From a virus, in IMG/VR virus record IMGVR_UViG_3300006919_000200, positions 1 to 34,008 of that record: a stretch of 34,008 bases of DNA; one strand, given 5' to 3'. The notes under the pieces were generated by a model, which saw only the letters and a program-made list of their open reading frames with translations, did no database searches and was not told the origin of the DNA. How positions within the stretch are numbered: position 1 is the first letter of the stretch; each line of letters opens with the position of its first letter. Shown here in pieces: positions 2,904-32,036 of the stretch. Position numbers and translations under genes: made by a program.

Positions 2904-4637
2904 ATGCATTACAACGGACCTGAAACACCTATATCTATAGAGATAGATGAAATGAAATATCGACAAACAGGTGAAAGCTTTGAAGAAAAAATAAAAAGAA
3001 TATCAAGAGCTTTGATGGATGACGTAAACCATAAGAATGCATTAGAAGATATATTAGGTAATATGAGATTCCTTCCGGCTGGTAGAGTACAATCAGCAGT
3101 AGGAAGTAACCGTATAACTACAGCCTACAACTGTTTTGTTTCTGGAACTATAGAAGATAGTATGAATGGAATAATGGAGAAGGCAAGTGAAGCAGCTGAA
3201 ACAATGCGCAGAGGTGGTGGGATTGGCTACGACTTCTCAAGGATACGGCCCAGGGGCAACAAGATTAAATCGCTCGATAGCCAAGCTAGTGGTCCGGTCT
3301 CCTTTATGGGCATCTTTGATTCTATCTGTCAGACCATCGCTAGTTCGGGACACAGACGCGGGGCGCAGATGGGTGTCCTCAGGGTCGACCATCCGGACAT
3401 TGAGGAATTCGTTACTGCTAAACGTAATTCTGATCGTCTTACTGGTTTTAATATTAGCGTAGGTATAACAGATAAATTTATGGAAGCCTTAACTAATGAA
3501 AGTGATAGCTCATTTGATTTAGTATTTGAAGATCAAGTGCACAAAACTATATGCGCTAAAAAGTTATGGGATCAGATAATGGAGTCTACCTGGGACTGGG
3601 CAGAACCAGGAGTATTATTCATTGACCGTATACAGGAGATGAATAACTTATATTACTGTGAAGAAATAGTAGCCACAAATCCGTGTGGTGAACAACCATT
3701 ACCTCCTTATGGAGCGTGCTTGTTAGGAAGCTTTAACCTAACTAAGTACATACAAGAAGATATACAAAATTTATTTGACTTCGATCAGTTTAAAAAGGAT
3801 ATACCTGATGTCGTAAGAGCTATGGATAATGTTATTGATAGAACTATATATCCGTTAAAACAACAATCTGATGAAGCAAAGGATAAGAGGCGCATGGGGT
3901 TAGGCGTAACCGGTCTCGCTAACGCCGGCGAAATGCTCGGGTTACCCTATGCGTCCGAAGAATTTATGGCATGGGCAGAAAAAGTATTTGCCTGCCTAAG
4001 AGATAACTGCTATAGAGCTTCTGCTTTATTAGCTAAAGAGAAGGGAGCGTTTCCTTTATATAGAGAACCGTATTTAAAATCAAACTTTGTGAGAAGCTTA
4101 CCTCACTCAGTAAGGAAGTTAATCAAAGAGCATGGCATCAGAAACTCTCACCTTACGTCTATCGCTCCTACTGGCACTATTAGCTTGGTTGCTGACAATG
4201 TTTCAGGAGGGATTGAGCCTGTCTTCAGTCATTACTACGATAGAACAATTCAAACTTTTGATGGACCTAAAGTTGAGAGAGTAGAGGATTATGCCTACTC
4301 AAGAGGAGTAGAGGGTAAAACAGCTAATGAGACTACTGTCCAAGAGCACTTATCTGTTTTATTATTAGCTCAGCATTATATTGATAGTGCTTGTTCAAAG
4401 ACTTGTAATGTAGGGGACGAAGTTGAGTATAGTAAATTTAAGCAAGTTTATGTTGATGCCTGGAAGGGCGGGGCGAAGGGATGCACAACGTTCCGACTCA
4501 GTGGTAAAAGATACGGAGTACTCACGACCGTGGAAGAAGAAAAGAAGGATACGGCTGAGATTGAATCAATTCAAGAAGAAGATAAAGTCGAAGCGTGTTT
4601 CATTGATCCACAGACTGGGATTAAGGAATGCGCATAA
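2904..4637 (+). CDS. nrdJ: Adenosylcobalamin-dependent (class II) ribonucleotide reductase
   Basis: This enzyme reduces ribonucleotides to deoxyribonucleotides using a cobalamin-generated thiyl radical, supplying dNTPs for phage replication. Visible motifs are C77 in YNCF, the GGGIGYDFSRIRPRG stretch at about 104-118, the active-site loop NPCGE at 259-263 (N259, C261 radical cysteine, E263), C272 eleven residues after C261 as in Thermotoga NrdJ, and PTGT in the phosphate-binding region. A C-terminal cysteine pair (C565, C576) is suited to reduction by thioredoxin. At 577 residues it is compact and shows no N-terminal ATP cone. No NrdB-like radical subunit is seen nearby, which supports class II. 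The SD AGGAG lies 7 bases before the ATG, inside a hairpin. Three segments (about 3181-3420, 3891-3960, 4455-4530) are far richer in GC than the rest of the gene. Confidence 0.93.
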   Translation: MHYNGPETPISIEIDEMKYRQTGESFEEKIKRISRALMDDVNHKNALEDILGNMRFLPAGRVQSAVGSNRITTAYNCFVSGTIEDSMNGIMEKASEAAETMRRGGGIGYDFSRIRPRGNKIKSLDSQASGPVSFMGIFDSICQTIASSGHRRGAQMGVLRVDHPDIEEFVTAKRNSDRLTGFNISVGITDKFMEALTNESDSSFDLVFEDQVHKTICAKKLWDQIMESTWDWAEPGVLFIDRIQEMNNLYYCEEIVATNPCGEQPLPPYGACLLGSFNLTKYIQEDIQNLFDFDQFKKDIPDVVRAMDNVIDRTIYPLKQQSDEAKDKRRMGLGVTGLANAGEMLGLPYASEEFMAWAEKVFACLRDNCYRASALLAKEKGAFPLYREPYLKSNFVRSLPHSVRKLIKEHGIRNSHLTSIAPTGTISLVADNVSGGIEPVFSHYYDRTIQTFDGPKVERVEDYAYSRGVEGKTANETTVQEHLSVLLLAQHYIDSACSKTCNVGDEVEYSKFKQVYVDAWKGGAKGCTTFRLSGKRYGVLTTVEEEKKDTAEIESIQEEDKVEACFIDPQTGIKECA

Positions 4638-12163: not shown

Positions 12164-14623
12164 ATGATGAACTTACCACCTATTGAAAAGATCGATAAGG
12201 TAGATCGATATGGTAATAAAGTTTCTATGCAATACGAAAACAACAGGCAAAAGAAACATAAAGTACAGGATCGACATGGTAATAGTTTGACACTTACATT
12301 TGCTTCACCTGATATTACTCCACCGCCTTCTATGACAGAAGTACCTAATTATTCTGCAAAAGGCGGAAACTCTAATAATCACCCTGGTAATCCAAAAGGT
12401 ACAGATACTGTGCCAGCTTGGCTTACACCTGGCGAGTTTGTAGTAAATAAAGAAGCAACACAAATGTATGAACCACTCATACGACAAATGAATAACCATG
12501 GACGACAAGTTCAAAATGAAAAAGCTATGTATGCTTCTCATGGTAGTTCAGTAGATGTAGATTGGATTACTGAAGATCTATTAGATAAACTACGATTTGC
12601 AGAAGTAGGCAACTTAAAACCTGAACAAATGGTTTCACCTGCTGGAGCTAGAGGACCATACCAAATTATGCCAGCTAACTTTGATGGTGGAGCTGGGTTT
12701 GGTACAACTCCTATTTCAGCTGCTGATGCTTTTAACGAAGAAAAGTCTAGAAGATTTGCAGCAGAATATTTAGCTGGAATACAAAACGCTTTTCCTGGTT
12801 GGAGCCCAACAGAAGTTTTACAAGCCTACAATTGGGGACCGGGTAATATGAGGAAATATAAGTCAGGCGCAGGAAATACTATGCCTACAGAAACTACTCA
12901 ATATCCTATGAAAATTTTAGGACCTGGTAAACAATATGCTAGCAATACTCCATTTAAGTTAAGTGATCTTTTTGGTATGTCTGCTTATGCTGCTGATACT
13001 AATAAACAGGTTCCTCAATTAGCTCAGAATAATGTAAGTGATATAAACTCTATTATATATGGTGGAACACAACCGGTTGATAACACTGTAAAACCAGCAG
13101 TAACCAATGATAGTCCTTTACCTGATTGGATGAAAGGATACCACACTTTTGGAGAAGAGGTTAAAAAAGATTTTGAATCTACTGGTGAACTACCTATTAT
13201 TTCTGAAAGCCAAATGGTTCCATTGTCAAGTGATAAAGGCGTAGAGCTTAGACCTTCTGATGTTAAGTCTAATGAACCTGGATTAAAGCAAGATCCTGGT
13301 ATGTCAAAGGAAGAAAAGTCTAGCATTGTACAAAAGATTAAAGAGCAGCTAGCGGCTAAGGAACTTGAGGAAGAAGAAAAGAAAAAGGCTGCTGAGGCAG
13401 GAGCTAATATTGCTGATGGCGATACAGGTGATGGAGATGCTGGCGCAAAAGAAATGAGTAAAGCCGAAAGGTTTTTAAAAGATTTATTAGGACCGTTGTT
13501 TAATAGATCAGAACTAAAACGAATGGCTATCTTTTATCTTGGCGCTAGAGCTATGAATAATACTCATGGAGATAGTTTAGCGTTTGCTCTTGAGAACTAC
13601 ATAAATCGAGTAGACTCTTTGGAGGAAGCTGCTTTAAGGTTTACATATAGTGAACAAGGACAAAAGCACACTGATAAATCTTTACAAGATTTTCTAGATA
13701 ACGACTATGATAGAAGTTTATTAATAGAAAAAGGATCACCAGTACGAAATACTGCTCAGTTTGTAATGGCTTATAGTTTGAAGAACCGTAATGTTAAAAG
13801 AAGACTTGAAAAAGTAGAAGTTGGAACAGGTAATAATAAAAGAACTTTACATAGAGATGTTAAAACTAATACCATTATACCCGATAGTTTTTGGAATGAC
13901 TGGACTACTAATGAAACATACGCTTATGGTACTGATAAATATAACGCAGAGTCAGCTAGATTAATTAAACTATTTGAAGATACTTTAAAAGCAGCTAGAA
14001 ATCTAAACTCTACTACAGTAAAAGATAGAACTGTAAAGAGTCCATACGATAAGTTAAACATTCCAAAAGAAGCACAAAAGATGGCAGCCTTTGTAATGCA
14101 AAAAGGACCAATAGATGCACAACGAAAAACTGGTGTTGATGCAAACTTGTTTGGAGCTGCTATAAACAATGCTTATTCTTTAGCGATGCAAGATGCTATG
14201 GCTGATGAAGTAGAGTTTACAGACTTATTACCTTATGTAAAGTATTTACAGTTTGAAACTAAAACTAATGCTAACCCTAAATTATTTGAAAGTGAACTTG
14301 ATACTCCTACAGAAAAGAAAACAGGTGTAGGCGATCCTATTAGTATGAGAGAGTTTGACACCTTAAAAGAAGGTATCGTTACAATGATGTTAACAATGCC
14401 AGACCCTGATGGAGAACCAGGTAGTAAACCTTTTGCTACTATGGATCCTGATACAGCATTTAATATTTATGTGACAGACACTGAAGAGCGTTGGAATAGT
14501 TTAACTAAAAATGAAAAAGGTGTTTGGAGAAGCAGAGCATTAGGTAAAGGTAAAGGTAAAACTTCAGGGTTCTTTGAGTTTTTGCGTGCCAGATATTTAC
14601 TTAATATAGCAGGAGATGATTAA
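12164..14623 (+). CDS. Internal virion protein with lytic transglycosylase (SLT) domain (819 aa)
   Basis: The SLT domain at about 135-240 shows catalytic E147 in FAEVGN, then SPAGARGPYQIMP at 158-170 and AYNWGPGN at 221-228, matching the E, GxxQ(I/M)MP and AYN-GPG signatures of soluble lytic transglycosylases. It would cut peptidoglycan glycan strands as the DNA-translocation channel crosses the wall, like the N-terminal domain of T7 gp16. Upstream, GTDTVPAWLTPGEFVVNKEA (79-98) is a motif common in phage structural proteins. Residues of about 385-420 are highly charged and helical. Either ATG, at 12164 or 12167, may be used. The stop overlaps the next start (TAATG). Unlike T7, the SLT domain sits on its own core protein and not on the largest one. 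Confidence 0.82.
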   Translation: MMNLPPIEKIDKVDRYGNKVSMQYENNRQKKHKVQDRHGNSLTLTFASPDITPPPSMTEVPNYSAKGGNSNNHPGNPKGTDTVPAWLTPGEFVVNKEATQMYEPLIRQMNNHGRQVQNEKAMYASHGSSVDVDWITEDLLDKLRFAEVGNLKPEQMVSPAGARGPYQIMPANFDGGAGFGTTPISAADAFNEEKSRRFAAEYLAGIQNAFPGWSPTEVLQAYNWGPGNMRKYKSGAGNTMPTETTQYPMKILGPGKQYASNTPFKLSDLFGMSAYAADTNKQVPQLAQNNVSDINSIIYGGTQPVDNTVKPAVTNDSPLPDWMKGYHTFGEEVKKDFESTGELPIISESQMVPLSSDKGVELRPSDVKSNEPGLKQDPGMSKEEKSSIVQKIKEQLAAKELEEEEKKKAAEAGANIADGDTGDGDAGAKEMSKAERFLKDLLGPLFNRSELKRMAIFYLGARAMNNTHGDSLAFALENYINRVDSLEEAALRFTYSEQGQKHTDKSLQDFLDNDYDRSLLIEKGSPVRNTAQFVMAYSLKNRNVKRRLEKVEVGTGNNKRTLHRDVKTNTIIPDSFWNDWTTNETYAYGTDKYNAESARLIKLFEDTLKAARNLNSTTVKDRTVKSPYDKLNIPKEAQKMAAFVMQKGPIDAQRKTGVDANLFGAAINNAYSLAMQDAMADEVEFTDLLPYVKYLQFETKTNANPKLFESELDTPTEKKTGVGDPISMREFDTLKEGIVTMMLTMPDPDGEPGSKPFATMDPDTAFNIYVTDTEERWNSLTKNEKGVWRSRALGKGKGKTSGFFEFLRARYLLNIAGDD

Positions 14624-17600
14624 TGTCAGAACTTGTAAGAACGCTAAGAGATTCCGGCAAGTTACCTAAGTATGGATCAGTTGAAAGTAACCCATTTGCG
14701 TTAACAAACGACTACATTTTTATTGATGCTGATACTATAAAGTCTAAGTCTGATCCTACTTTTAGTGGAAGATTAAAAGGTATTGACGCTCCTGAAGTTG
14801 CAAAATTCTTTTCTCCTACTGATACTGAAGGTTCTACGGCTGGTGGTTATAGAGCCGGCGCTTCATTAATGGAGCTTGCACAAAAGCAAGGGTTTACTAA
14901 TGTTGTTAGAACTGGAGAGCTAGATGCGTTTGATAGAGAGCTTGTAGAATTACGAGACGAAAGAGGTAGAGACTTTGTAGATACTCTAATGAGAACTGGA
15001 GTAATGGAACCTACTAGATACTCTACAGCTCAGCATATTAAATACGCTGATATGGCTAAGATCTTTGGTGTAGCTGATTTAGGTGAAGACTTCGATATAG
15101 CTCGTAACGCTATTGCTGATACGATCGCTGAAGAAACTCAGCACCATATGGTATTCAGAGACTTAGCTACCACTGAACAGCAGTTAGCTTATGGTGGTGG
15201 CTATTATATGCCTGGTTCCGTAGCTATTAGAGATCCTAAAAGAACTCTACAAAATAAAGCAAAGAATCCGTTATCTGAAGCATGGGATATAGGTTGGGTT
15301 GGTGCATACGAAGGACTGTCAGGGTTTTTAGCAATGGGAGGAGAAAGCACTGGTATTAAATGGGCTGAAGAATTAGGAGAAGCTTCAGTATACAGACAAC
15401 AAAGATACCTAGCTAATAAACCTGAAATTGTTACTAGCTTTAAAGATATTGATGGTATATTTGGAAAGCAAGGCGCATTTCAGTATTTATTAAATAACGC
15501 TGTAATATCTGTTCCCTATATGGCAGCTACTGCAGCTGGTTATCTTGCTGCTGGTCCTACTATGGGTGCGTCTATGTTGCTTCCTATAAGTTTGTATACA
15601 GGTACTATATATAATGATCAGCCTGAAGATGGAAAGAATGCTGGCTTAGCTATTGCTGGTGGTTTAACTCAATCTGTTTTAGATAGACTTGGTTTGCAAC
15701 TGCTAATTAGAGGTGGTGCAGGTACTATGCTCACCAAAAAAGGTAGAGACGAAATAATAGAGGCATATGCAAAGAAAGCTAATGTAAGTCCGGAAGAAGC
15801 TAGCAGAGTAGTACTAAATACTACTAGAAAAGAGATGGCTAAACTTGCTAAGGACGCAGCTGCTTTTGCTAAACAACAGATTTCTGCTAGAAATGTATCT
15901 AGAAACTTAATAAAGAGAATGGTAATAGGTGGTGCTGGTGAAGGTACTACTGAATTTATGCAAGAAGCTATTGGCTACACTGCTGCTCATGCAGGTAACG
16001 GGTTTAAAGATTGGGATGCCAATGAGTTTAATACTAGATTAATTGATGGTGCAATCGCTGGTACATTTATAGGTAAAGCTTTTACAATCCCAGGTACTAT
16101 GTGGGATTATGGTGTATGGAGAGACGTTCAATATAAACTGTCCCCTAGTACAGGAAAGCAAATATCTGAAGCGGGTGTTTCTGCAAATGAAGATATTCAA
16201 AAACATGGTAGACAGTTTAACATTCAACAAAACAACGCCAATCTTCAAGCAGCTATGGATACAGCTAAACAAAGAATTAGTACTCTTACTAAATCTATAA
16301 GTGGTTTAGAGAAAAAACTTAAGGTAGCTAAAGCAAAAAATAAAAGAGAACAGTTAAAGTCTGATATAGATAGACAAAGAGAAAAGCTAGAAGAAGCAAA
16401 GTCGCTTTTAAATTTTGAAGATATAAACGATAGAAGCGCAAGACACGAAAAAGCTTTACAAAAAAGAACTGTTACTGAATTTAGAAACGATTTATGGAAT
16501 AACCTGCCAGCCTTATGGAGAGGTTTGACTAGGCATATATTTCCTTTTGATTTACAATTAAAAGCTGATAACACAGCTGAACAAATAAAGAAAGATAAAT
16601 CGTTAGTTGGTGATGTTCCAGCTATTAGGCATTTAGCTGAAGCTCATAGTGGTAACCTTGAAAAGTCTATGACTGGTATGCATTATGAAAACCGCATGCA
16701 CCATTATATTTCAGCGCTTAAAGAAAAATTAAAAGACGTTAACACTACACTTTTTGCTTTTGGCAGAACAGATACTAGAGCAAGTCGATTAAAATTTAGT
16801 GAAGAGTTTTATGATGCATTTGTTAAGGCTAGAGAAAACGCTAAAGCAAAAGGTCGTGAAAACAATATTAAGTGGGACGAAGATTTAGAAGGACCATTTA
16901 GAGAGCACTTACCTGAGTTTAAAGCTTTAATAGCTAGAATGGAAAAAGTTGCTAACGATATTTTTAATATGCAAAAGAAATATAATCCGTTTCTTGGTAA
17001 GATAGCTTACTTTTTAGCTAGAAGTAGAACTCTTGATAAAGAAAAAATTGCTCGTGATCGAGGTACATTTGAAAAATTATTGTCAAAGCACTTTGGTTAT
17101 TCAGATAAAAAAGCTAGAGAACTTACTACAGCTATTTTAGCTATGGATTCTACTGATGGCTTTGTAGATACTGGAATGTTAGATTACGATGGTAACTTTT
17201 CTGTTACATCAAGGCATACCTTTAGACCTAAAGCACAAAAGAAAAGAGAGCTTGGAATATCAGATATATCTGACTTTAAAGATTTTTTAGAAAACGATTT
17301 GTTTACTAACATGTCTAACAACCTTAAGTCTGCTGTAAGATATACTACTATAGAAGAGTATGTTGGATCTAATAACGAAAAAATAAATTACTGGTTAGAT
17401 AAAGCTGAAAAGCAACTAATAAAATCTGGTATGCCTGAAGACGAAGCTAAAGCTCTTGTAGATCAAATAGCTTTTAGAATGAAGAGATACTATGATGCTC
17501 AGTCAGGTAACTATAAACGAACTCATAAGCCTGTATGGGAGTTTGTTAAAAAGAATCTTATCTTTGTTACTACTGTAACACAACTACCTTTAGCTACTGT

Positions 17601-18816
17601 ATCTAATATCGTAGAACTAGGTACATCATTAAGAGGCCTTAGTAAAGATCAGATCTTTGGTACAAAAGAGGAGCTTAAAAGAGGAAAATTACAACCTGGT
17701 CAAAGAGGTAGTATTGCCGCAATAGTTTATACATTTGTAGAAGAATTTTACAATACTATACTTAGAGCATATAGCACTGTTGCTATGAAACCTATGCTTG
17801 ATCGAAGAACTAGTTACGGTTATCAAAGAAACAAAGAGCTAGGGTTTATGAGCTTTGAAGTTGGTGCTGCTCATACAACAGGTGTTAGTGAAGTTGGCCA
17901 TTTACGACAAAGAATACTTGATGTGTATTTTAAAGTTATTGGTTTGCAACAATGGACTAATGCTATGAGAGCGGGTAGAGCAGCTATTGCAGCTGATTAT
18001 ATCCTTGATAAGGTAGCAACTATAGCAGAACATAGAACTGCTAAGATTCAAGAGAAAGATCCTATATGGACTAACGAAATGGATGAGGCTCAAGAATCTT
18101 TGCGTAACCTAGGAATAGATCCTAACTTTATGGTTAAGTTTGTTATAGATCCGGAGATGCAGCTTAATAAAACACATGTTAATACTTTTAAAACTAATAT
18201 GCGTGAAGGAGAGTTTAACTTTGTTAATGAAGCTGTTGTATTACCTCAGTCCGCAAACAGACCTTTGATATTCCAAGATCCTCGGTTTGCTTTATTCACA
18301 CAGTTTCAAGGATTTATATCTACGTTTACTGCTTGGCATTTACCTAAAATGTGGAATGATCTTGTAAAACGTGGTACTCCTGGTATGAAGTATAACGCTT
18401 TTGCTACAGCAATGTCAATGATTGCATTAGGCTTTTTATCTCAGCATTTAAAAGACTTACTTAAGTTTGGCGAACCAAGCCCATACTTTACTGGTATGGA
18501 ATACATGAGAAGAGGCGTAGGTGCTAGTGGATTGCTAGGTACAGGAGAACGATTAATTGACTTTGCTTTTCCTATGTATGATAAGCGATACCCTAATACT
18601 ACTATGTGGGCAATTGGTACTGTTGCAGGAGAATCTGCAGCGGTAAGTAAAGCTTTAAGACTTGGTGGTATATCGTATGACGTTGCAGCAGGAGACAAAC
18701 CTCCTGAAACTCTATATAAACTATCGCCTTTTAGTCAAACATTATATAAACATCTTCACCCTGACAACGTATCTTGGGATTATGATCGTTTCCCTGATGA
18801 AGTAATTAATCAATAA
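14623..18816 (+). CDS. Giant internal virion protein with N-terminal staphylococcal-nuclease-like domain (1397 aa)
   Basis: Residues of about 30-128 form an SNase-like domain. FIDADTI (33-39) supplies metal ligands D35/D37; GRLKGIDAPE (49-58) supplies R50, D55 and E58; DAFDRELV (101-108) supplies R105. The spacings R50-D55-E58 (+5, +8) and D101-R105 (+4) equal those of S. aureus nuclease (R35-D40-E43; D83-R87), so the catalytic set looks intact. Residues of about 290-345 and 430-495 contain hydrophobic and Gly-rich segments, including GGAGEGTTEFMQEAIGY, that could insert into membrane. About 540-600 is a charged coil. The C-terminal third includes RPLIFQDPRFALFTQFQGFI and RRGVGASGLLGTGERLIDF, patterns of large phage core/polyvalent proteins. 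It would probably be ejected with the DNA. I have not seen a nuclease on this class of protein described. Confidence 0.75.
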   Translation: MSELVRTLRDSGKLPKYGSVESNPFALTNDYIFIDADTIKSKSDPTFSGRLKGIDAPEVAKFFSPTDTEGSTAGGYRAGASLMELAQKQGFTNVVRTGELDAFDRELVELRDERGRDFVDTLMRTGVMEPTRYSTAQHIKYADMAKIFGVADLGEDFDIARNAIADTIAEETQHHMVFRDLATTEQQLAYGGGYYMPGSVAIRDPKRTLQNKAKNPLSEAWDIGWVGAYEGLSGFLAMGGESTGIKWAEELGEASVYRQQRYLANKPEIVTSFKDIDGIFGKQGAFQYLLNNAVISVPYMAATAAGYLAAGPTMGASMLLPISLYTGTIYNDQPEDGKNAGLAIAGGLTQSVLDRLGLQLLIRGGAGTMLTKKGRDEIIEAYAKKANVSPEEASRVVLNTTRKEMAKLAKDAAAFAKQQISARNVSRNLIKRMVIGGAGEGTTEFMQEAIGYTAAHAGNGFKDWDANEFNTRLIDGAIAGTFIGKAFTIPGTMWDYGVWRDVQYKLSPSTGKQISEAGVSANEDIQKHGRQFNIQQNNANLQAAMDTAKQRISTLTKSISGLEKKLKVAKAKNKREQLKSDIDRQREKLEEAKSLLNFEDINDRSARHEKALQKRTVTEFRNDLWNNLPALWRGLTRHIFPFDLQLKADNTAEQIKKDKSLVGDVPAIRHLAEAHSGNLEKSMTGMHYENRMHHYISALKEKLKDVNTTLFAFGRTDTRASRLKFSEEFYDAFVKARENAKAKGRENNIKWDEDLEGPFREHLPEFKALIARMEKVANDIFNMQKKYNPFLGKIAYFLARSRTLDKEKIARDRGTFEKLLSKHFGYSDKKARELTTAILAMDSTDGFVDTGMLDYDGNFSVTSRHTFRPKAQKKRELGISDISDFKDFLENDLFTNMSNNLKSAVRYTTIEEYVGSNNEKINYWLDKAEKQLIKSGMPEDEAKALVDQIAFRMKRYYDAQSGNYKRTHKPVWEFVKKNLIFVTTVTQLPLATVSNIVELGTSLRGLSKDQIFGTKEELKRGKLQPGQRGSIAAIVYTFVEEFYNTILRAYSTVAMKPMLDRRTSYGYQRNKELGFMSFEVGAAHTTGVSEVGHLRQRILDVYFKVIGLQQWTNAMRAGRAAIAADYILDKVATIAEHRTAKIQEKDPIWTNEMDEAQESLRNLGIDPNFMVKFVIDPEMQLNKTHVNTFKTNMREGEFNFVNEAVVLPQSANRPLIFQDPRFALFTQFQGFISTFTAWHLPKMWNDLVKRGTPGMKYNAFATAMSMIALGFLSQHLKDLLKFGEPSPYFTGMEYMRRGVGASGLLGTGERLIDFAFPMYDKRYPNTTMWAIGTVAGESAAVSKALRLGGISYDVAAGDKPPETLYKLSPFSQTLYKHLHPDNVSWDYDRFPDEVINQ

Positions 18817-18828: not shown

Positions 18829-21800
18829 ATGAGTAGATTTTCAACTGCAGCTGGACAGAGAAGAAAAATTGAAGCTACAAAAGATCTTTTCTATAATCAA
18901 GCTGGTCAGTCAGAACTATTAAAGAAGTTAAACGCTCAGCTTATAAAGGGACGAACACCTGAAGGACAAGCGGTAGATACTTCTTACTATGAAGGGTTTG
19001 GGTTATCTCCTGAAGTAGAACAAACCCCTATATACGATAGTTTAACAGAAGAAATAGTTGATCCAGACCAGGGAAGAACTGGACCCGCAGTAGTATCAAA
19101 GCTAAAAAGCAAAGCTCAGGAAGCTGGTTTATTAAAACCACCTATGGATCCTGATCGAGCTGCTAGACTTGACGACTACTTTAGAAAAGAAGAAGACGAT
19201 AAACGTCAACAAGCATACGACGATCTTATTGCTATGCAAAGAAACCAAGAAAGAGTACCAGGAGTTTCTGAAATAAGACCAGACTTTGCAGCTAGTTTTA
19301 AGGATAAGCAAGCAAGAAGAGATTATTTAGGTAAAGCTTCTCTTCCAATCCGTAGAACTCTGCAAGAAATACATAATGATCATAAAGAAGGTGAGCTACA
19401 AAACCGTACTATATCTAACTCGCCTTTATCTTATATTAAGAATGATGGCTTTGGAGAACTAATTAGACGCGGAGATCTTTTGACTAAAGCTTTTTTAACT
19501 ACGATAACCGATGACATAATAGATAAAGCAGATCTTAAACAGCAAGTTGCTAAAGATCAAATAAGATTTAGAGATAAAGATGGTAACCTTTTAAAGAGAG
19601 AACTTACACCTGAAAACTCTCCTAAAGGCGTAAGCACAAAGCAATCTTACTTAGAGCCTTATGAAATTTCTGCGCATATTGAGTCTCAGGTACTATCAGC
19701 TATTGATGAAGGACTAGTTGATTCACCTATTGTACGGAATATATTAGGTAAATTAAAAGATCCTTATTTAAAAGATGGTGAACTTACAGAGTCTGGAAGA
19801 GAGCAGTTGATAAAAGACTACGCTGAAGAGCAAGGGTTATCAATGGCAGAAGCTACAACAGAAGTTGATGGTGTTCTTGTAGATGAAAGGTTTTACGGAA
19901 GAGTATCTTTAGACGATAGAATAAGACAAGCTTTGAGATCGCCTGAAAGAAAGGCAATGGTAGCTGCAGGTAAAAGAACTAATGCTCGAACTCTTAAGAT
20001 AAAAGCTGAAGAGATAATGAAGCGTAGAGCTAAGAAGAAAGAGCAAGGTAAAGCTCCTGATCCGCTGCCGTTTATGTTTATACTAGAAGCACTACACCCT
20101 AACATAAACTTTAATGAACTAAATCTTAAAGGTATCTTGTTTGATCCTGATGGATTTAATGCTGGTATACTAGGAGTTAATCCATATATCAGACGTAAAA
20201 GCGGTGCAAGCCCTAGACGAATGATGATTGATCCAGTGTTTGGAAAGATCATGAGCTTTGTTACTGAAAAGTTTTTATTGCAAACTCAGTTTATACCTAC
20301 TGTAGGTGAAGCGCATCCTGATGCTGAAGCTTTAATACGAGAAGGCGTACTAGTTAGAACTCCTACTCCTGATACTGATAACATAACCCCTGACGACAAA
20401 AGAGATATTGGGTCTTATCTTGAAGCTCCTAGTATTGAAACAAGCGAAACAGGTGGCGTAACTTTATTAAAAGGTAACAGTCAACTTGGCAGAGAAATAT
20501 TTAAAGAGTGGAAGAGAGAACAAAACAGAAGATTAGGTAGACCGACTGATGAGTACTCATTGAAAGGAGTTCCTGAATCCTCGTTTGAAATAGTAGGTAC
20601 ATTTGCTAGAGAGCTTTATGCTGAAGTTAACCCTGACTTATATCAGAAAGAAACTCTTAATGATCAGACATACTACAATTTAACTGATAAAGGATTACAA
20701 GCTTTAAATGCTGCTGCTCGTGCAGCTCCTGACGCTTTTAGAAACGTAGAAAAAATGCCTAGGTTAGTTCCGCCAACTGATTTTATAGGAGAGAGAACAC
20801 CTACTAAGCAAACTACTACTGTTGTAAATAGGTATATAAGACAGATCGAACAGTCTAGAAAAAATATGAGTTCTATTGCGCATAAGGTAGACACATTAAG
20901 AAGTAAACTTATGAAGCAAGCGGCTGTTCAAGTTTTATCTAATGCTAAATCACAAACAGAGTTAGACAAGCTTGGAGACTTCTTTGGATTAGGACCTGAA
21001 AAGTATATTGAATTTAGAGGTACCTTTGATAAAAAAGTTTTTGAAATACAGAAGTATGCAGGCTTAGAAAAACGAGCTGCGCAAGAAAGAGTATATGAAA
21101 CGTATCGTCCTGATTACGAGATGGATAAACAGTTTGCTAGATTCTTAGAGTTTATGCATACAGTAGGCAGATACTCTGATGGCGCATACTATTTAGACTT
21201 TGTAGTACAGAACTTGCAAGGACGAATGCACGTTGATCAGACTAGATTTAATCCACAACTTATTCCTTGGGTTAGATATATTACTGGTGGCGTTGAGCCT
21301 GTTCAGTTTAATCCTTATACTGCTATAGGTGATGAGCATAATATATTTAAAGAGCATATGGCTAAGCAGTTTATTCCTGCAGCCAAAGGAGATTTACCTA
21401 ACGAAGCTATTAAAAAGTTTGATAGAGAATTTAGTAAACATCTTAATAACGAAACTGATAGTTTGTTTTCAGCTATTATTTCAGAAGGAGCTACTGTTGA
21501 ATCTAGTCTTATGAGTGACGAAGATAATAAAAGATACGACAAACTTCTTTCAGAAATTAAAATCAACGTTAATCCTGAAATGTATCAGGGTGAAATGGCT
21601 GAAATGGATCCTAACACTATAAGACCTAAAGGTAGTTCGTTATCAAATCCGTTAGCTGACATAGTTCCTAATGAATACATCGCAGTTCCAGATGAAGTTG
21701 CTCAAATGCCACCTCTTAATATACCTGATTCTTTATTAGCAAGAACTAGAAAGGGTGGTATGAAAGGACCTAGTGAAGGACTTGAGGGCTTTGCCAAGGT

Positions 21801-23544
21801 TGAAGCTGCCATTGAACTAAAGCGTTATGCAGATGCTTGGAAAAATAAGACGCCATTTAGAACTAATATAGCCATTGAGTTGGACGGTACAACTCATGGT
21901 CCTTCTTCTTGGTTGGCTATGCTTGGTGCTATTAAGTCTGCATTTAGAAGTGGGGTACTAAGAAAGGAAGGAGCTAAAAAAGTTTTAGATGACATGGTAG
22001 TTGCAGAACTTTTAGAAGTTGATGGATTACCTGCTGATATGCAGGACCAGGCAGCTGGTGATTTACGTGATGGATTAGCAACTTATATGCTAGAAAATGG
22101 TAATGATTATGCTAGTGCTTACCATGCAGATACTGAGTTTAGTCCTATATTATATTCTATTTTACAAAAAGCTGTCTTGGATCGTGATAACTTTCTTAAG
22201 AAACCTCCTATGACTTTGTCTTATGGTCAGTTACTTGGTAACCTTAGAAAAGCTATATATGATGTTATATATACTGGTGAGCAAGCTACTGCTATTAACG
22301 AGCTCATTGAAACAGAAGGCTTTAGAGATAGTTTAGCTAAGCAAGGTAAGAACGAACCAGCTGAAGAAGTTGTAGCTACTTACTTACATAACATATTAGC
22401 TGATGCTATTGATATGGAACTACATCCTGCAGTTGTTCAAGTCGGTCAGTTGTTAAGAGCTAACAATGCAATAGCTATGTTAAGCGATGAAATCATGACG
22501 GTTAAAAATGCTTTAGGCATTGATAACTATATTGGTGCAAAAGAAAGAGTAGTTAAGAGAGACACTGATGGTCAAGTTATGATTGGGGAGTTTCATTTAC
22601 AGACTGAGGGATCAGGCTCTGCAAGAAAGCCGATCGTGTTATATAAGTCTGAGCCAGCAGGAAGCGCTTTAAGAGATGGGATTCCTGGTGGATGGGGAAG
22701 AGGTAGAATTATACCTGCTATTATCCAAGGTATTGATGGAGCTTGGATGAACCTAATGTTTAGAGGTGAATCATGGAACGCTCTTGAAGGTAACTACATG
22801 CTACCTATTATGGATGCTGTTAAGACAGATCTTAGAGGAGCAGCTGAAGTTAGACGTCAAGCAAATAAGAACTGGTGGAAAGTTATTGAAGAGTATGATC
22901 CATGGACAAGTCTATTTATGGAATGGCAACCTGCCGCAGTAAATAAGTTTTACAATAAGATAGGTTATAATGCTAAAGATAACAAGTGGACTGAAAACCC
23001 TAAACAAATTATTCCGTTTAGAGATGGATTAACAGGACCTAAGTATGCTGAGCTGCCTCCGTTAAGAGTAACTCCTACTGCTCAAGGAATTAAAGGCTTA
23101 CAAGCTGCTGATTTATCTGGACCTTATAAAGGATTTTGGTATTTAACTCATCAGACAGCACCTTCAGAGTTTGTTGGGTATGGCGAGTTATCTTTACAAA
23201 ACTTACAAAAACTTATTGATGATACTATGGAGTTCAGAGCTAGAGATAAAGGCGAAGATATACAAGAGTATAATAATAAAAAGTGGGAAGCAGCTGGAGT
23301 GTTAGCTAAAAAGGTAGCTCAAGCTGAAGCTGCTAAAATATACGGTTCTAGTAAAGATAGAACACCACTTGATGGTATGAGTAGAGAGTACATGAAACAA
23401 TTCTTTGACAGACTTGTAGCCGTATTAGATATTGTAAAGCGTAATAAGATTAATACTGTTACGCTCAACAAAGAGAAGCAAGTACTAATACAGTTAGAGA
23501 AGAGTAAAAAGAGTAAAGGCGGAATACTTCAAGTTAACCTATAA
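18829..23544 (+). CDS. Giant virion-type single-subunit RNA polymerase (1571 aa)
   Basis: SD CTGGAG precedes the ATG. The core at about 780-1350 carries the T7/N4 single-subunit RNAP motifs in order. NLQGR with R799 is the TxxGR/DxRGR motif. IELDGTTHGPSSW has D1019, equivalent to T7 D537. KKPPMTLSYG has K1124 and Y1132, at the exact spacing of T7 K631 and Y639. IQGIDGAW (1299-1306) corresponds to T7 VHSQDGSH. LPIMDAVKTD has D1329, equivalent to T7 D812. The helix following D1329 also aligns with T7 after HDSFGT. About 780 N-terminal and 220 C-terminal residues are unassigned. Size, location after the core proteins and separation from the ordinary RNAP fit an N4-like virion RNAP that is packaged, ejected and transcribes early genes. 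Two T7 histidines are replaced (Q1300, M1328). Polymerase fold confidence is high; packaging is inferred. Confidence 0.82.
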   Translation: MSRFSTAAGQRRKIEATKDLFYNQAGQSELLKKLNAQLIKGRTPEGQAVDTSYYEGFGLSPEVEQTPIYDSLTEEIVDPDQGRTGPAVVSKLKSKAQEAGLLKPPMDPDRAARLDDYFRKEEDDKRQQAYDDLIAMQRNQERVPGVSEIRPDFAASFKDKQARRDYLGKASLPIRRTLQEIHNDHKEGELQNRTISNSPLSYIKNDGFGELIRRGDLLTKAFLTTITDDIIDKADLKQQVAKDQIRFRDKDGNLLKRELTPENSPKGVSTKQSYLEPYEISAHIESQVLSAIDEGLVDSPIVRNILGKLKDPYLKDGELTESGREQLIKDYAEEQGLSMAEATTEVDGVLVDERFYGRVSLDDRIRQALRSPERKAMVAAGKRTNARTLKIKAEEIMKRRAKKKEQGKAPDPLPFMFILEALHPNINFNELNLKGILFDPDGFNAGILGVNPYIRRKSGASPRRMMIDPVFGKIMSFVTEKFLLQTQFIPTVGEAHPDAEALIREGVLVRTPTPDTDNITPDDKRDIGSYLEAPSIETSETGGVTLLKGNSQLGREIFKEWKREQNRRLGRPTDEYSLKGVPESSFEIVGTFARELYAEVNPDLYQKETLNDQTYYNLTDKGLQALNAAARAAPDAFRNVEKMPRLVPPTDFIGERTPTKQTTTVVNRYIRQIEQSRKNMSSIAHKVDTLRSKLMKQAAVQVLSNAKSQTELDKLGDFFGLGPEKYIEFRGTFDKKVFEIQKYAGLEKRAAQERVYETYRPDYEMDKQFARFLEFMHTVGRYSDGAYYLDFVVQNLQGRMHVDQTRFNPQLIPWVRYITGGVEPVQFNPYTAIGDEHNIFKEHMAKQFIPAAKGDLPNEAIKKFDREFSKHLNNETDSLFSAIISEGATVESSLMSDEDNKRYDKLLSEIKINVNPEMYQGEMAEMDPNTIRPKGSSLSNPLADIVPNEYIAVPDEVAQMPPLNIPDSLLARTRKGGMKGPSEGLEGFAKVEAAIELKRYADAWKNKTPFRTNIAIELDGTTHGPSSWLAMLGAIKSAFRSGVLRKEGAKKVLDDMVVAELLEVDGLPADMQDQAAGDLRDGLATYMLENGNDYASAYHADTEFSPILYSILQKAVLDRDNFLKKPPMTLSYGQLLGNLRKAIYDVIYTGEQATAINELIETEGFRDSLAKQGKNEPAEEVVATYLHNILADAIDMELHPAVVQVGQLLRANNAIAMLSDEIMTVKNALGIDNYIGAKERVVKRDTDGQVMIGEFHLQTEGSGSARKPIVLYKSEPAGSALRDGIPGGWGRGRIIPAIIQGIDGAWMNLMFRGESWNALEGNYMLPIMDAVKTDLRGAAEVRRQANKNWWKVIEEYDPWTSLFMEWQPAAVNKFYNKIGYNAKDNKWTENPKQIIPFRDGLTGPKYAELPPLRVTPTAQGIKGLQAADLSGPYKGFWYLTHQTAPSEFVGYGELSLQNLQKLIDDTMEFRARDKGEDIQEYNNKKWEAAGVLAKKVAQAEAAKIYGSSKDRTPLDGMSREYMKQFFDRLVAVLDIVKRNKINTVTLNKEKQVLIQLEKSKKSKGGILQVNL

Positions 23545-23551: not shown

Positions 23552-23577
23552 AAAGGGTACCTTAATTGGTACCCTTT
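23552..23577. terminator. Bidirectional intrinsic terminator between convergent clusters
   Basis: A perfect GGGTACC (23555-23561) / GGTACCC (23568-23574) stem with loop TTAATT is extended by AAA/TTT pairs. It is followed by nine T on the plus strand. An A-run lies on the left (23543-23554, one T inside), giving a U-tract in the opposite direction. It stands 7 bases after the stop of the virion RNAP gene and 7 bases beyond the stop of the minus-strand 60-aa gene, so it can end both transcripts. Confidence 0.9.
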
Positions 23578-23776: not shown

Positions 23777-26140
23777 CTATGAAAAGAAATAGTCACTATC
23801 AGCTATTCCTTTTATATCTAGATCTCCTAACTTATAGTTGTAATTAAACTTCTCAGGTTCAAGCAATAGCATTTCTGCTATGTCTTTATAGAAATCATCA
23901 TGATCATACATTTTAATGAACACTTCCTTAGTTAAACCTAACAAGCTAGCTACATCACAAGCGTGAGTAGAAAATGAGTCATGAATAGCAGCAAAGTCTC
24001 CGTCCCAGTGATGGATAATTAGAGCCATATGTGCTGCGTCCATACTGTGAATGAAGTTTGGACTTATACCTGAGGCAAAGCCACCAGGACTAGGTATCTT
24101 TTTACCATACACTAGCCTATGTTCTTTACCTACATGCTGGATCCTCATATCAGAGATCCAACTTTTCCACTTGACGTCTTCCATTACATAGTTTTCGTAC
24201 CGTACTGGAAAGCCAGATGGAGTTTGCCAGTCAACTACAGGTTCCTTTAACTCAGCAATAATGTGGTTTGCTATAGCTTGCAGGTAACTCATAGTCTCTA
24301 ACGGGCCTGGACACACCTCATCGATAGCTTTTATAAGCTGAAATGCTAAGTCGTTACAGTCACTCATAGTAATATTGTACTTACTATGGAATCCTTCGGC
24401 ATAACAGTCAGCATACATGTTCAAAGCTATGGCTAGGTGGCCCGCAGAGTACGCTCTAGTCATCGCTCCGCGTTTCGATATACCTTTCCTTATGTGTTTC
24501 ATAGGCATGTCTCTCTGCGCGAACCAGGAGGGCACGCGAGCTATCAATGCTTTAGCTGTTTGCACATAAAAGTCCTTAGGTATGTCAGTTTTTACTAGTC
24601 CCACTAGTTCTCCGGCCTTTTTATCCTTAGATATAGCAGCTAAGTGCTGCCAGCCGTTGTTAGAACCGTCGATCGGGACAGGAAGATCGATGTAGTATAC
24701 ACCATCTTTAGACTCTTGATCCCATAGGCTACACCATGCCTTGCAACAAGCAAGAAAACCTACAGGCTTCTCAGCTTTTTCATGGATAGTACGATTTACC
24801 CATGTATTTCTAATGAAGTCTTCGTTATTAAGAACCCATTTAACTCGATCATCAATGGTCATTTTATCTACAGAAATATCTGTAAGACCTTCATTATCTA
24901 ACGCTGATTTATAATCGGCTTCACACCACTCCGGTATATTATCGATTGAATACGCCTGGTTGTATGAACATGCTGTATGCACAGCAAAGTAATACAAACC
25001 TTCTTCGGTCATTGGTTGTGCATTAGCAAACTTCAATAGACCTCGCTCCATATCTTTACCTTGGTAGTTTAAATACGATTCACGATAATACAATCTCCCC
25101 CTATAATCTGCATCTACATACTGAAAGAATATTTTATCTTTCAACGCTTCTGCTTTTTGAACAGTCATATTATATGCGTCAAACTTACTACGGTTTTTAA
25201 GTAATACTAACTTAGCGTTCCAATGCGTAGCAGCTTCATCGTACTTAGCTTGAGCTCGTATCAGTGGCTTTTTGTTAGGTTTATTACGTAACTTATTAGT
25301 CAGTCGTCGTAGTTCACCATAGTATTTCTTTTCAAGAGACTTATTACCTAACTCAGGTTTAAATACAACCTCATTCCAGTATAAGTTCTTGCCTTCTAAC
25401 TCTTTGTTGTTACCAAATATACAGTATCGGTAGTTCTTACCAGTTTCATCAGCAACTTTTAGAGTTTCAGTAACAAACTTACGCTTGTTTTTAAGTACAG
25501 CTTCTAATATATCGGAGTCTATTGTCCAAGCTGTACGTTGTAGTTTATTTATTGCATCAATAAATGGTTGGTCAAGCAATAACTTAAAGTCCTCGCTCTT
25601 ATCGTATCCCCAGTGTTTTATTACTGGGAATCCATTGTCTTGAAACAGATTACTTATACGCTTTATCTTAGTAGTAGATGTGTTTTGTATAAGCTCATTG
25701 ACTACCTGGTCAGGTAGCGATCCTATGTTTAGCCACTTATCAGATGTCTCAATCATATATGGTGCACGGCTGTAAGGTTTCTTACCAACCGGGTTTGCTT
25801 CCCATTTAATCTGAGCTTCTGTAGGTGCCCTCACTATTTTAATATATCCACACTCATAGAAAGCTTCAAGGATTAGGTCGCCGACTGTTACATCGGCTCT
25901 AAATCCTAACTCAACTCCTTTCTGTAGCAACACGTTCTTACCTATAGCTACTGAGGCTGCAGTAAGTTTACATGTTGCTGATTCAGATGTTGATGTTTTT
26001 CTAAAGTGATACTGCAGTATTGTTAACGCATCATACACAACTCTCTTCGGTTCCAGCTTGTGTTCGTTCACCAGCCGTACTGCCCACCTCTGAGGTGTAC
26101 TTATAATTTTCTGTTCTAAATACTCTATCACATTCTGCAT
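23777..26140 (-). CDS. T7-like single-subunit DNA-dependent RNA polymerase (787 aa)
   Basis: The SD AGGAG lies 7 bases before the ATG at 26140. Motifs in order are DADYRGRLYY (343-352, with R349 in the role of T7 R425), PVPIDGSNNGWQH (D491 ~ T7 D537), KRGAMTRAYS (K556, Y564 ~ K631, Y639), PNFIHSMD (H698 ~ H784) and AIHDSFST (H720, D721 ~ H811, D812). The C-terminus DSDYFFS resembles the T7 foot ending in FAFA. At 787 residues it is shorter than T7 RNAP (883), mostly in the N-terminal promoter-recognition half. It should transcribe middle or late genes from phage-specific promoters, which I could not identify. The motif B region (about 24421-24540) is about 54% GC, whereas a sample elsewhere in the gene is about 32%. 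Confidence 0.95.
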   Translation of the reverse strand: MQNVIEYLEQKIISTPQRWAVRLVNEHKLEPKRVVYDALTILQYHFRKTSTSESATCKLTAASVAIGKNVLLQKGVELGFRADVTVGDLILEAFYECGYIKIVRAPTEAQIKWEANPVGKKPYSRAPYMIETSDKWLNIGSLPDQVVNELIQNTSTTKIKRISNLFQDNGFPVIKHWGYDKSEDFKLLLDQPFIDAINKLQRTAWTIDSDILEAVLKNKRKFVTETLKVADETGKNYRYCIFGNNKELEGKNLYWNEVVFKPELGNKSLEKKYYGELRRLTNKLRNKPNKKPLIRAQAKYDEAATHWNAKLVLLKNRSKFDAYNMTVQKAEALKDKIFFQYVDADYRGRLYYRESYLNYQGKDMERGLLKFANAQPMTEEGLYYFAVHTACSYNQAYSIDNIPEWCEADYKSALDNEGLTDISVDKMTIDDRVKWVLNNEDFIRNTWVNRTIHEKAEKPVGFLACCKAWCSLWDQESKDGVYYIDLPVPIDGSNNGWQHLAAISKDKKAGELVGLVKTDIPKDFYVQTAKALIARVPSWFAQRDMPMKHIRKGISKRGAMTRAYSAGHLAIALNMYADCYAEGFHSKYNITMSDCNDLAFQLIKAIDEVCPGPLETMSYLQAIANHIIAELKEPVVDWQTPSGFPVRYENYVMEDVKWKSWISDMRIQHVGKEHRLVYGKKIPSPGGFASGISPNFIHSMDAAHMALIIHHWDGDFAAIHDSFSTHACDVASLLGLTKEVFIKMYDHDDFYKDIAEMLLLEPEKFNYNYKLGDLDIKGIADSDYFFS

Positions 26141-29698: not shown

Positions 29699-30107
29699 CG
29701 AAGTTTTGATACTTTTCATAATAGATCTCCGGTCTTGGCCAACAGTTATTTAAGTATACTATGTCAGCCTCGTATACTGGTTCACCCGAGTTTACATTTA
29801 CAAATGTAGATGTTTTGTACGGGTTATACATTGCTTGTTGCGCATGAAGCATTCTATGGTTAGTATGAGTGCTATCAGCAGCAAGATCATACTTATTACC
29901 TAATACGAATCCTCTTATAAAAGCATGTACATTTTTCTTCTTTTCTTTAAGAACCTTTGCTCGACCAGCAGGTTGTACTGCAAACTTACAGTTATGTAAG
30001 GTTAGTAGGTTAGTATGAAACCATACTCTACCTGCGTGTCTTACTGAAAAGGTTTTCTTATGTAGGTTATAATATACTTCAACCCACGTGTTATATCCTA
30101 AGCTCAT
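29664..30107 (-). CDS. Conserved-looking hypothetical protein downstream of DNA polymerase (147 aa)
   Basis: The ATG at 30107 shares a base with the DNA polymerase stop (TAATG), so translation is likely coupled. The product is soluble and basic, with features such as NTWVEVYYNLHKKTFSV, KNVHAFIRGFVLG and YNPYKTSTFVNV. It looks like a globular alpha/beta protein with conserved aromatic and Gly positions, and I have an impression of similar proteins beside phage DNA polymerases. No catalytic motif is evident. It may be a replication accessory protein. Confidence 0.6.
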   Translation of the reverse strand: MSLGYNTWVEVYYNLHKKTFSVRHAGRVWFHTNLLTLHNCKFAVQPAGRAKVLKEKKKNVHAFIRGFVLGNKYDLAADSTHTNHRMLHAQQAMYNPYKTSTFVNVNSGEPVYEADIVYLNNCWPRPEIYYEKYQNFDDKSCSKSDAA

Positions 30108-31966
30108 TAGTGTACCTCCGCGTATGAGTTACCTATTACATAGTTACCACCATCCATGCATTCAACACCAAACCATTTAGGCGCTTCACGAAAAGACTCT
30201 TGTAGTATTTCACCAACACGATTAGAGTCTTTATCACTTGCAATCCATGCTTGCTCGTCATGATAGAATATAGCAGGATAAGCATCAAGCTTTTCCTCTT
30301 TGATTTTATTCATAGCATAACTCAAAGCTGCTTTACAAGTAATACCTTCGGTAGTTTGTAACAGGTAATTAAGTACTTGGTAATCAGATCTAGCATATAT
30401 CTTACGACCATCAAGACCTGGTATACAACCATACTGATTGTAAACGCCTTTTAGTTTATCAACTAGTTGCCCGAATCCAGGTAAATTTGCCATGAACTTT
30501 TGCCTAGCCGCTTTACCTTTAGGCGCGCTGCTAACCCCAGTAAGCGCTTGACCAAGCTTAGCATCACCTGCACCAAAGAGAATAGCGTAAAGAAAAGACT
30601 TAGCCACGCTCCGGCTACAACCAAGAACAGCAGCATTCCGTGCATGTTGATCTCCATTAACCACCAAGTCTGTGTAGGATCTGTCTCCCACGTAATGGCA
30701 TAAACCACGCAGCTGATTCCCAGCACTATCCGCACCGACAACCCTATAACCAGGCTCAGATACGAATAGTTCCCTAAGCATTCTACCATACGAAGCATCC
30801 ACTGCTGGCAGGTTAACGATAACCTCGTGACGGCATCGAAAACTAGGAGTACCAATAGTAAACATCCGACCATGAAGACGATAGTTTCCTGTGTCATCTT
30901 TCTCAATCCTTTCTAGCCATGATTCAATGGTAGCTTTACGGTTCTTGATAGTATAATATCTATCAATTAGCTTACCTTGTCTACCTAGTTTAGCCAATGA
31001 AGTTGACGTAAGCTTAGGACCTGTACGTACCCATTGGCCATTGTGTCCTTTCTTTACATTCCAATCATCAGGTTTCCAGCCAATAGTCTTAAGCCATTCT
31101 TTTACTAGTTCCATATTACTAAGCGTTACCTTTTCCATTTTAGATCTTTGGAACTCTTCACCAGGTTTTACAGGTGGATTATCACTGAGTGCATCTTCAC
31201 CTATAACTCTTTTGTTTAGGTATTCAGATAAGATTCTAGCTGTTGTTGCTGTATAGAATCCTGACTTAGTATACTTAGCTACCTTAGGTAACTTATCTAC
31301 ATACACTTTAGTCATACCTAGTTTTGGTTCAATGATAGCTTCAATCTTATTCATATGTCTAGTCATAAGTCTAAGGTTGTCTTGAGCTTTATTAAGATCA
31401 AACAGCCAACCTTTCTTACGTACCATAGACTCGAATACAGCTACATCATGCTCAACCCGTAAACCTTTCTTAATCAGGTCGTTAGTCTTTACTGCCTTAT
31501 GTAGTTCTGCTAGTAATACTTCGTATACTTTAGTATTAAGCTTAACATCATTCATACAATAGTTAATCATCTTAGGGTCGTATGTCTTGAACCCATCAGC
31601 TGCCCACTCAGAGTTATCTATCTTAGCAAAGCCTAGATGTTTACCCCATCCTGCAAGACCATGCTTATGGGTTCTATTAAACTGTAGCGTTTGACTCATA
31701 ACCCATGTATCAATAAGTCTAGTATTTTCAGACGGCTTCCAGCCATATAGCTTTTCCAATGCCATCAAGTCAAACCCAATAATGTTATGGCCTATTAGAG
31801 CTTCAGCTTTACTCATAAACTCTAGACCGTATTTAATAGGTGTATCACCGGGTTGATCAGTGTACACATATGTTCTTTTTGTAACTGCATCTTGGCAGAC
31901 TAGTACATAACAAGTTGTCATGTCTTCTAGAAAGCCATCAGTTTCTATGTCAAATACAAGTTGCAT
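30107..31966 (-). CDS. Family A DNA polymerase with 3'-5' exonuclease, T7 gp5-like (619 aa)
   Basis: The exonuclease domain has FDIETDG (D6, E8), GHNIIGFD (D66) and YCMNDVKLN (D140). Polymerase motif A is GADSAGNQLR (D413), motif B RSVAKSFLYAILFGAG (K456, Y460) and motif C YHDEQ (H569, D570, E571). Y460 occupies the E. coli Pol I residue-762 position, the Tyr form that T7 also has. At Q418 the Glu that normally acts in sugar selection (T7 E480, Klenow E710) is Gln. It is shorter than T7 gp5 (704 aa). Bases of about 30481-30790, spanning motifs A and B, are about 50% GC, above the rest of the gene. The SD AAAGGA lies 6 bases before the ATG at 31966. Confidence 0.94.
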   Translation of the reverse strand: MQLVFDIETDGFLEDMTTCYVLVCQDAVTKRTYVYTDQPGDTPIKYGLEFMSKAEALIGHNIIGFDLMALEKLYGWKPSENTRLIDTWVMSQTLQFNRTHKHGLAGWGKHLGFAKIDNSEWAADGFKTYDPKMINYCMNDVKLNTKVYEVLLAELHKAVKTNDLIKKGLRVEHDVAVFESMVRKKGWLFDLNKAQDNLRLMTRHMNKIEAIIEPKLGMTKVYVDKLPKVAKYTKSGFYTATTARILSEYLNKRVIGEDALSDNPPVKPGEEFQRSKMEKVTLSNMELVKEWLKTIGWKPDDWNVKKGHNGQWVRTGPKLTSTSLAKLGRQGKLIDRYYTIKNRKATIESWLERIEKDDTGNYRLHGRMFTIGTPSFRCRHEVIVNLPAVDASYGRMLRELFVSEPGYRVVGADSAGNQLRGLCHYVGDRSYTDLVVNGDQHARNAAVLGCSRSVAKSFLYAILFGAGDAKLGQALTGVSSAPKGKAARQKFMANLPGFGQLVDKLKGVYNQYGCIPGLDGRKIYARSDYQVLNYLLQTTEGITCKAALSYAMNKIKEEKLDAYPAIFYHDEQAWIASDKDSNRVGEILQESFREAPKWFGVECMDGGNYVIGNSYAEVH

Positions 31967-31989: not shown

Positions 31990-32036
31990 ATTATATGGTT
32001 TTCAAGTAATTTGTGTTCAAACAAATTAGCTTGAAA
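31990..32036 (-). promoter_or_regulatory. Long hairpin and possible promoter upstream of DNA polymerase
   Basis: Between two minus-strand genes (31967-32045), TTTCAAGTAATTTGT (32000-32014) pairs with 32021-32036 around a six-base loop, 15 pairs with a single bulged base at 32029. No long U-tract follows in either direction, so it is not a standard terminator. On the minus strand a perfect TATAAT lies at 31995-31990. TTGAAC in the hairpin loop stands 19 bases upstream, a slightly long spacing for a sigma-70 promoter. It may be a host-type promoter, an operator or an RNA-processing stem. Confidence 0.4.

Follow-up and report, generated by a model that had tools for sequence, protein, structure and literature searches.

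The window analysed here is the whole of one viral IMG/VR record (34,008 bases), which is probably a fragment, since relatives reach 55–61 kb. On its + strand, an ORF that is intact from ATG to stop (18829–23544) encodes a product of 1571 amino acids without cysteine (P0001), predicted to be a compact single-subunit RNA polymerase that resembles virion RNA polymerases (vRNAPs). The product divides into a variable N-terminal part (residues 1–413; 18829–20067, + strand), which is helical and poorly conserved, and a polymerase core (residues 414–1571; 20068–23541, + strand), whose predicted right-hand fold runs up to the C-terminus according to AlphaFold2 and VIA. Upstream on the same strand are the genes of two likely ejection proteins, both lacking cysteine: an 819-aa virion protein with a lytic-tail/transglycosylase-like stretch (12164–14623; phrog_2013, 8.7e-12) and a 1397-aa virion protein (14623–18816; phrog_6958, virion structural protein, 3.5e-18) with a homologue in gp34 of Roseobacter phage CRP-7. 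Two further genes of the window are a ribonucleotide reductase large-subunit gene inside the structural module (2904–4637), B12-dependent in the CRP-7 annotation, and the gene of a 1420-aa virion protein (4650–8912), in which residues about 290–515 resemble a LUZ24-type virion/tail protein (34% identity).

In the window, the + strand carries the structural module and the − strand the replication module; they meet tail-to-tail at about 23.6 kb, with the vRNAP-like gene and a T7-like RNAP gene as their respective last genes. The convergent partner (23777–26140, − strand) is an ordinary T7-like RNA polymerase of 787 aa with 12 cysteines (PF00940, E=2e-53), and the record does hold the normal T7-like enzyme that the earlier note had named. 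Between the stops of both polymerase genes is a likely two-way terminator (23552–23577), the hairpin AAAGGGTACC-ttaatt-GGTACCCTTT, with a 10-bp stem, an A-run before it and a T-run after it. Farther along lies a family-A DNA polymerase gene (30107–31966, − strand; PF00476, 2.6e-15), downstream of a hairpin considered below. Where relatives are complete or nearly so, the early/replication module and the structural module run in opposite directions away from a single region, and each ends in a polymerase gene, the structural module in the vRNAP-like gene and the early/replication module in the T7-like gene.

Searches with P0001 as a single sequence produced no useful match in Pfam, NCBIfam, PDB sequences, a phage collection or viral contigs. 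PF00940 was not matched by P0001 and was matched by one of 40 family members (0.0013) in the Pfam search, and the family profile found low-complexity or chance matches only among PDB sequences. The family was reached via the T7-like RNAP neighbour, which led to 51 viral loci, many of them with a P0001 homologue on the opposite strand; a later profile search gave 71 loci, with some repeats. The resulting set comprises 80 full-length homologues (1117–1689 aa), reduced to 40 when near-identical sequences were removed, and to 41 with P0001 included. The pairing of the two polymerases is constant across these loci. The vRNAP-like gene is tail-to-tail with a T7-like RNAP gene in 101 of the 101 locus records having enough downstream sequence, which represent ∼79 different contigs (∼22 are counted twice) and include the record of the window itself; the converse, a T7-like RNAP gene that faces a convergent vRNAP-like gene, holds in 106 of 106. 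A little-known group of marine phages hence has a vRNAP-like enzyme beside an ordinary T7-type RNAP, and a trait regarded as the hallmark of N4-like phages appears to be more widespread. In two nearly identical contigs, the T7-like RNAP ORF is broken and the vRNAP-like gene intact (L079:13178-15698 and L082:13177-15697), while a third contig (L080) has the same vRNAP and an unbroken T7-like RNAP; the break is either a sequencing error or a real loss. Two Alteromonas phage records (MF278336 and MW043865) each have two places that match the T7-like RNAP query, and thus other marine podoviruses may carry two single-subunit RNAPs or a split one.

The catalytic motifs of single-subunit RNA polymerases are all found in P0001 at the residues that the earlier note had assigned to them: R799 in the GR motif NLQGR (codon 21223–21225, + strand; the counterpart of T7 R425 and N4 R1421), D1019 in motif A, ELDGTTHG (codon 21883–21885, + strand), K1124 and Y1132 in motif B, KKPPMTLSYG (22198–22224 for the stretch from K1124, + strand), and D1329 in motif C, IMDAVKTD (codon 22813–22815, + strand). 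R799, D1019, Y1132, G1133 and D1329 are invariant in 41 of 41 non-redundant sequences (P0001 and its 40 relatives), and K1124 is kept in 40, the exception being CRP-7 gp33, which has R. Members that share these invariant residues are down to 17–20% identical, and judged on the aligned sequences this invariance is far beyond chance, which argues for selection on catalysis. The spacing was described beforehand as T7-like, a description that holds from motif A to motif B and fails for the stretch from R to D. In P0001 the distances are 220 residues from R to D, 105 from D to K, 8 from K to Y and 205 from K to the second D; the R-to-D distance is about twice that of T7 (112), and in N4 vRNAP it is 135. 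P0001 is predicted to be catalytically active.

The predicted structure agrees with this assignment. The AlphaFold2 model of residues 414–1571, built from 40 sequences, has a pLDDT of 82 and a pTM of 0.83, and Foldseek with this core model returned T7 RNAP (4e-13), N4 mini-vRNAP (5e-13) and mitochondrial RNAP (8e-13); the best 50 PDB matches are all single-subunit RNA polymerases of these three types. VIA gave Z scores of 23.5 against T7 RNAP, in an alignment that reaches the last residue of T7 RNAP (883), and of 21.2 against N4 mini-vRNAP, with 727 residues aligned, and both matches extend over the full length of the modelled core. Several annotated Schitoviridae vRNAPs are among the predicted viral structures that were matched. 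The polymerase assignment was to be rejected, by a condition named in advance, if the fold was not the right-hand palm, and the predicted core is a right-hand RNAP. On the strength of this model, the 1571-aa product is a single-subunit RNA polymerase. The N-terminal 422 residues gave a poor model (pLDDT 62), and therefore we claim no domain there; residues 1–413 perhaps have a role in packaging or ejection.

Since the structure scores fail to separate N4 vRNAP from T7 or mitochondrial RNAP, we judged the lineage by sequence. When core profiles were compared with hhalign, the family matched ten Schitoviridae vRNAPs (Prob 99.0, 2e-18) better than eighteen T7-like RNAPs (97.7, 2e-12), and the two reference groups matched each other at 4e-8. 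Either half of the family alone still prefers the vRNAP profile, and the controls (reversed profiles, column-shuffled profiles and a family-A DNA polymerase profile) were null in hhalign. Full-length hhalign comparison of the family with the T7-like RNAPs of the same phages was poor, and only core profiles worked. A joint alignment of 44 sequences, T7 and N4 types included, brings the R, D, K and D residues of every sequence into shared columns, and the Y of 43. In the FastTree phylogeny, the family is the sister group of the Schitoviridae vRNAPs (support 0.983), apart from the T7-like RNAPs and from N4 RNAPII. Among PHROGs, 12 of 40 members match ‘virion RNA polymerase’ (PHROG 2206, best 2.5e-11) and 19 of 40 match ‘RNA polymerase’ (best 3e-7). 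The N4 vRNAP motifs GRMQMLGKYNPQSAKLVRE, EADGVTNGP and KNPLTITIYG have as their counterparts in P0001 GRMHVDQTRFNPQLIPWVRY, ELDGTTHGP and KKPPMTLSYG. The kinship with N4 vRNAP rests on sequence that is ∼15% identical, and because the divergence is this great, the sequence comparisons make it well supported, if not beyond doubt, that the compact family is the sister of the N4-type (Schitoviridae) vRNAPs and not a second T7 RNAP.

The position of the gene and its composition both bear on whether the polymerase is packaged. The vRNAP-like gene is the last of the ejection-protein operon, as gp50 is after gp52-gp51 in N4, and N4 gp52, gp51 and vRNAP are treated as ejection proteins in a recent study (PMC12633501). 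At the cysteine frequency of the remaining window genes, a protein of 1571 residues should contain about 12.8 cysteines (P about 3e-6 for none), and no gene of the window between 9553 and 23544 encodes any. Cysteine is likewise absent from 39 of 41 family members, with one residue in each of the other two, and from the 3500-residue N4 vRNAP, while the T7-like partner RNAPs have 9–14. This contrast between the family and its T7-like partners is consistent, though the relatives are not independent. For StenR_269, a vRNAP has been proposed solely on the grounds of its size, its helical content and its lack of cysteine (PMC10747016). Homology, operon position and the absence of cysteine together suggest, each of them indirectly, that P0001 is packaged. 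Fold, profiles, tree and synteny thus bear out the proposal of the earlier note that a second single-subunit RNAP ends the virion-protein operon beside a T7-type RNAP. Our main reading, to which we give a probability of about 0.8, is that P0001 is a compact virion enzyme belonging to the N4 (Schitoviridae gp50) lineage of RNA polymerases, most likely packaged and used for early transcription, with hairpins as its probable promoters.

Three other accounts of the protein were weighed against this reading. The protein could be a second, non-virion RNAP that is produced late, at the same time as the structural proteins, and serves late transcription or replication priming inside the cell without being packaged; its place in a late-type operon and its lack of the N4 C-terminal domain and most of the N-terminal domains would fit such an enzyme. 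We consider this unlikely, as the nearest relatives are packaged polymerases, the gene takes the last place in an ejection operon as in N4, the protein shares its lack of cysteine with the neighbouring ejection proteins and with none of the T7-like partners, and a late-made enzyme would duplicate the T7-like RNAP. Still less likely is a structural ejection protein that has the polymerase fold and does not polymerise, serving only to pull or anchor DNA. The variable N-terminal part and CRP-7 gp33, with its changed motif A and its R for the motif-B K, are points in favour of such a protein, but the retention of both aspartates, Y and R in every family member, and of K in all but one, at so low an identity speaks against it. 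That the motif resemblance is due to chance and the protein is no polymerase, to which the failure of P0001 alone to match Pfam, NCBIfam or PDB sequences might point, we regard as hardly credible, since the fold, profile and conservation results already refute it.

Two classes of promoter-like elements are found in these genomes: one is linear and T7-like, and the other consists of hairpins in the early module whose stems covary. De novo repeat analysis gave a T7-like linear site in most genomes examined, GTGTCTCCTATTAGAGA in the window and in G001-G003, and TCTCTAAGTTCCTTATAGGGA in G007, G011 and G012. These sites are intergenic in nearly all cases and sense-oriented in nearly every structural-module case; in the window, an exact match to the G001-G003 repeat, upstream of the ribonucleotide reductase gene (2861–2876, + strand), is a candidate promoter. 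In three genomes a T7-like site faces against the early genes, just downstream of the early hairpin (G011 36054, G012 7502 and G007 21034, at loci L142, L144 and L167, respectively); antisense transcription or a replication origin is possible there.

The hairpins were scanned for as perfect hairpins with a stem of at least 7 and a loop of 3–6, and the expectation was obtained from dinucleotide shuffling. Intergenic hairpins number 33 in the early module, compared to 7.2 expected, and 14 in the late module, compared to 6.7 expected. In G003, the loop is ATTC or ATCC, followed in most copies by TTAAAC or TTAAAAC, and the stem varies (GCGCGAT, AAATTTTAT); in G001, the loop is ACAAG and the stems are AGCCCAG, TGCCAG and CGCGAG. 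Loop sequences thus vary between genomes. The DNA polymerase gene is preceded by a hairpin in 12 of 14 near relatives, 26–41 nt before the start codon (0.4 expected), with seven different stems among these relatives, which are not all independent. In the window, the candidate early hairpin promoter is 34 nt upstream of the DNA polymerase gene (32000–32036, − strand; DNA fold −9.8 kcal/mol, z −6.6). Applied to N4, the hairpin scan recovered AAGAAGC-tcc-GCTTCTT and AAGCTGC-tcc-GCAGCTT, which by position and form are the N4 early promoters and are built like the early hairpins of the relatives.

Identification of the early hairpins as vRNAP promoters is suggestive only, because the complete relatives G006, G008, G009 and CRP-7 yielded no hairpins of this class and because a stem-loop could act in RNA. 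The polymerase may be as described and the hairpins RNA processing sites, stabilisers or attenuators, with other start sites used for transcription, and we take this as a serious possibility, although not one that we favour. Stem-loops whose stems are free to change may themselves be RNA elements, and both the differing loops and the four complete relatives without such hairpins fit this explanation. If the hairpins acted as RNA elements, their features would be unexpected in several respects: most are without a U-run, they are concentrated in the early module close before start codons, their build is common to the N4 vRNAP promoters, and no Rfam family matches the window.

Under the main reading, in which the compact polymerase is a virion enzyme, the two polymerases would act in succession. 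The compact vRNAP would most likely share the particle with the other ejection proteins, be threaded through the short tail either before the DNA or together with it, and refold in the cell. Its template there would be the early/replication module, read probably from hairpin promoters. Next, the T7-like RNAP, as the last gene of the replication module, would take over at linear promoters of the T7 type, chiefly the structural-module ones, and the compact vRNAP, as the last gene of the structural module, would be made late and packaged. The order of action, and which polymerase reads which element, are inferred.

The nearest isolate, and the only one found, is Roseobacter phage CRP-7, a podovirus whose homologue gp33 (L053:17862-21566) is annotated as a hypothetical protein. 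The 1235-aa gp33 adjoins gp30, a T7-like RNAP, is free of cysteine and scores 471 bits with the family profile; it differs from P0001 in its low identity (14%), its Arg for the motif-B Lys and its altered motif A (DARQSNAG), and the CRP-7 genome is without early hairpins, unlike the window. The CRP-7-type group is widespread in seawater (PMC6918029). We considered Naomviridae as the family of this group and rejected it, as CRP-7 is unclassified at the family level in the taxonomy and Naomviridae is another group. Literature on CRP-822-type and CHUG roseophages deals with other groups or mentions no RNAP.

In the open-licence literature we found no paper reporting a compact vRNAP lineage. A 2023 survey retrieved 3,786 N4-vRNAP-associated proteins in IMG/VR, after which additional hallmark genes served to filter for N4-like genomes (PMC10654107), so some compact vRNAPs may have been seen and not described. 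What is new here is a distinct compact sister lineage of vRNAPs in phages other than Schitoviridae, the invariable presence of a one-chain T7-like RNAP beside it, and the promoter candidates. The widest form of the proposal, to which we give nearly even odds, is a second, compact lineage of ejected RNAP, sister to the whole Schitoviridae lineage, that drives a two-enzyme programme in widespread marine podoviruses and starts at DNA hairpins with nearly free stems and a group-specific loop. In that case the vRNAP clade would have inherited hairpin-promoter recognition from its ancestor, and the trait would not be peculiar to N4; if the hairpins are vRNAP promoters, they provide many natural hairpin-promoter variants with changing stems. 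A compact sister without the large C-terminal domain would show the minimal needs of an ejected polymerase and, at 1.1–1.7 kilo-residues, would be an easier subject than N4 gp50 for questions of tail threading and refolding. The family profile could also relabel CRP-7-type proteins that are now annotated as ‘hypothetical’.

Among known systems, the T7-like (Autographiviridae, PF00940) RNAPs have the same fold and the same catalytic residues as the compact vRNAP, but the latter is below Pfam detection, has a weaker profile match to them than to vRNAP, is about twice as long, lacks cysteine and is encoded with virion proteins. The earlier note had drawn parallels to the packaged polymerases of N4 and of crAss-like phages. 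The first is apt, as N4 has the closest relative, while the second concerns a different class of enzyme: crAss-like vRNAPs are of a fused beta-beta' type, reach about 6000 aa and differ in fold from the right-hand polymerase predicted here; they are thought to enter the cell by ejection and to carry out early transcription (PMC10136315).

The family and the Schitoviridae gp50 have in common the right-hand single-subunit RNAP and the motifs GR...NPQ, E-DGxTNGP and KxPxTxxYG, and both N4 and the window encode a T7-family non-virion polymerase in the same genome. They differ substantially in size, with 1117–1689 aa in the family compared to about 3500 for N4 vRNAP; an Alteromonas schitovirus vRNAP has 2,083 aa (PMC11705849). 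The large C-terminal domain of N4, which autoinhibits the enzyme as a section heading of the preprint PMC12633501 states, is absent from the compact vRNAP, since the polymerase core of P0001 runs to the C-terminus, and the N-terminal part, about 1100 aa long in N4, measures about 410 aa in P0001 and is down to about 175 aa in the shortest of the near relatives. Without the C-terminal domain and most of the N-terminal part, ejection could differ from that of N4. The partner RNAP is one chain in phages with the compact vRNAP and a gp15 + gp16 pair in N4, and the candidate hairpin stems and loops differ from those of N4. With genomes of up to 55–61 kb and a one-chain T7-like RNAP, compared to about 66–78 kb and a two-chain RNAPII in Schitoviridae, these phages are a different group from the Schitoviridae, to which the giant vRNAP was called ‘unique’ in recent work (PMC12633501). 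The transcription strategy, which was proposed beforehand to be distinct, is not wholly so, because a virion RNAP combined with a T7-family non-virion RNAP is the strategy of N4 itself; it is a variant of that strategy, with a compact virion enzyme and a single-chain second enzyme, in a different phage group.
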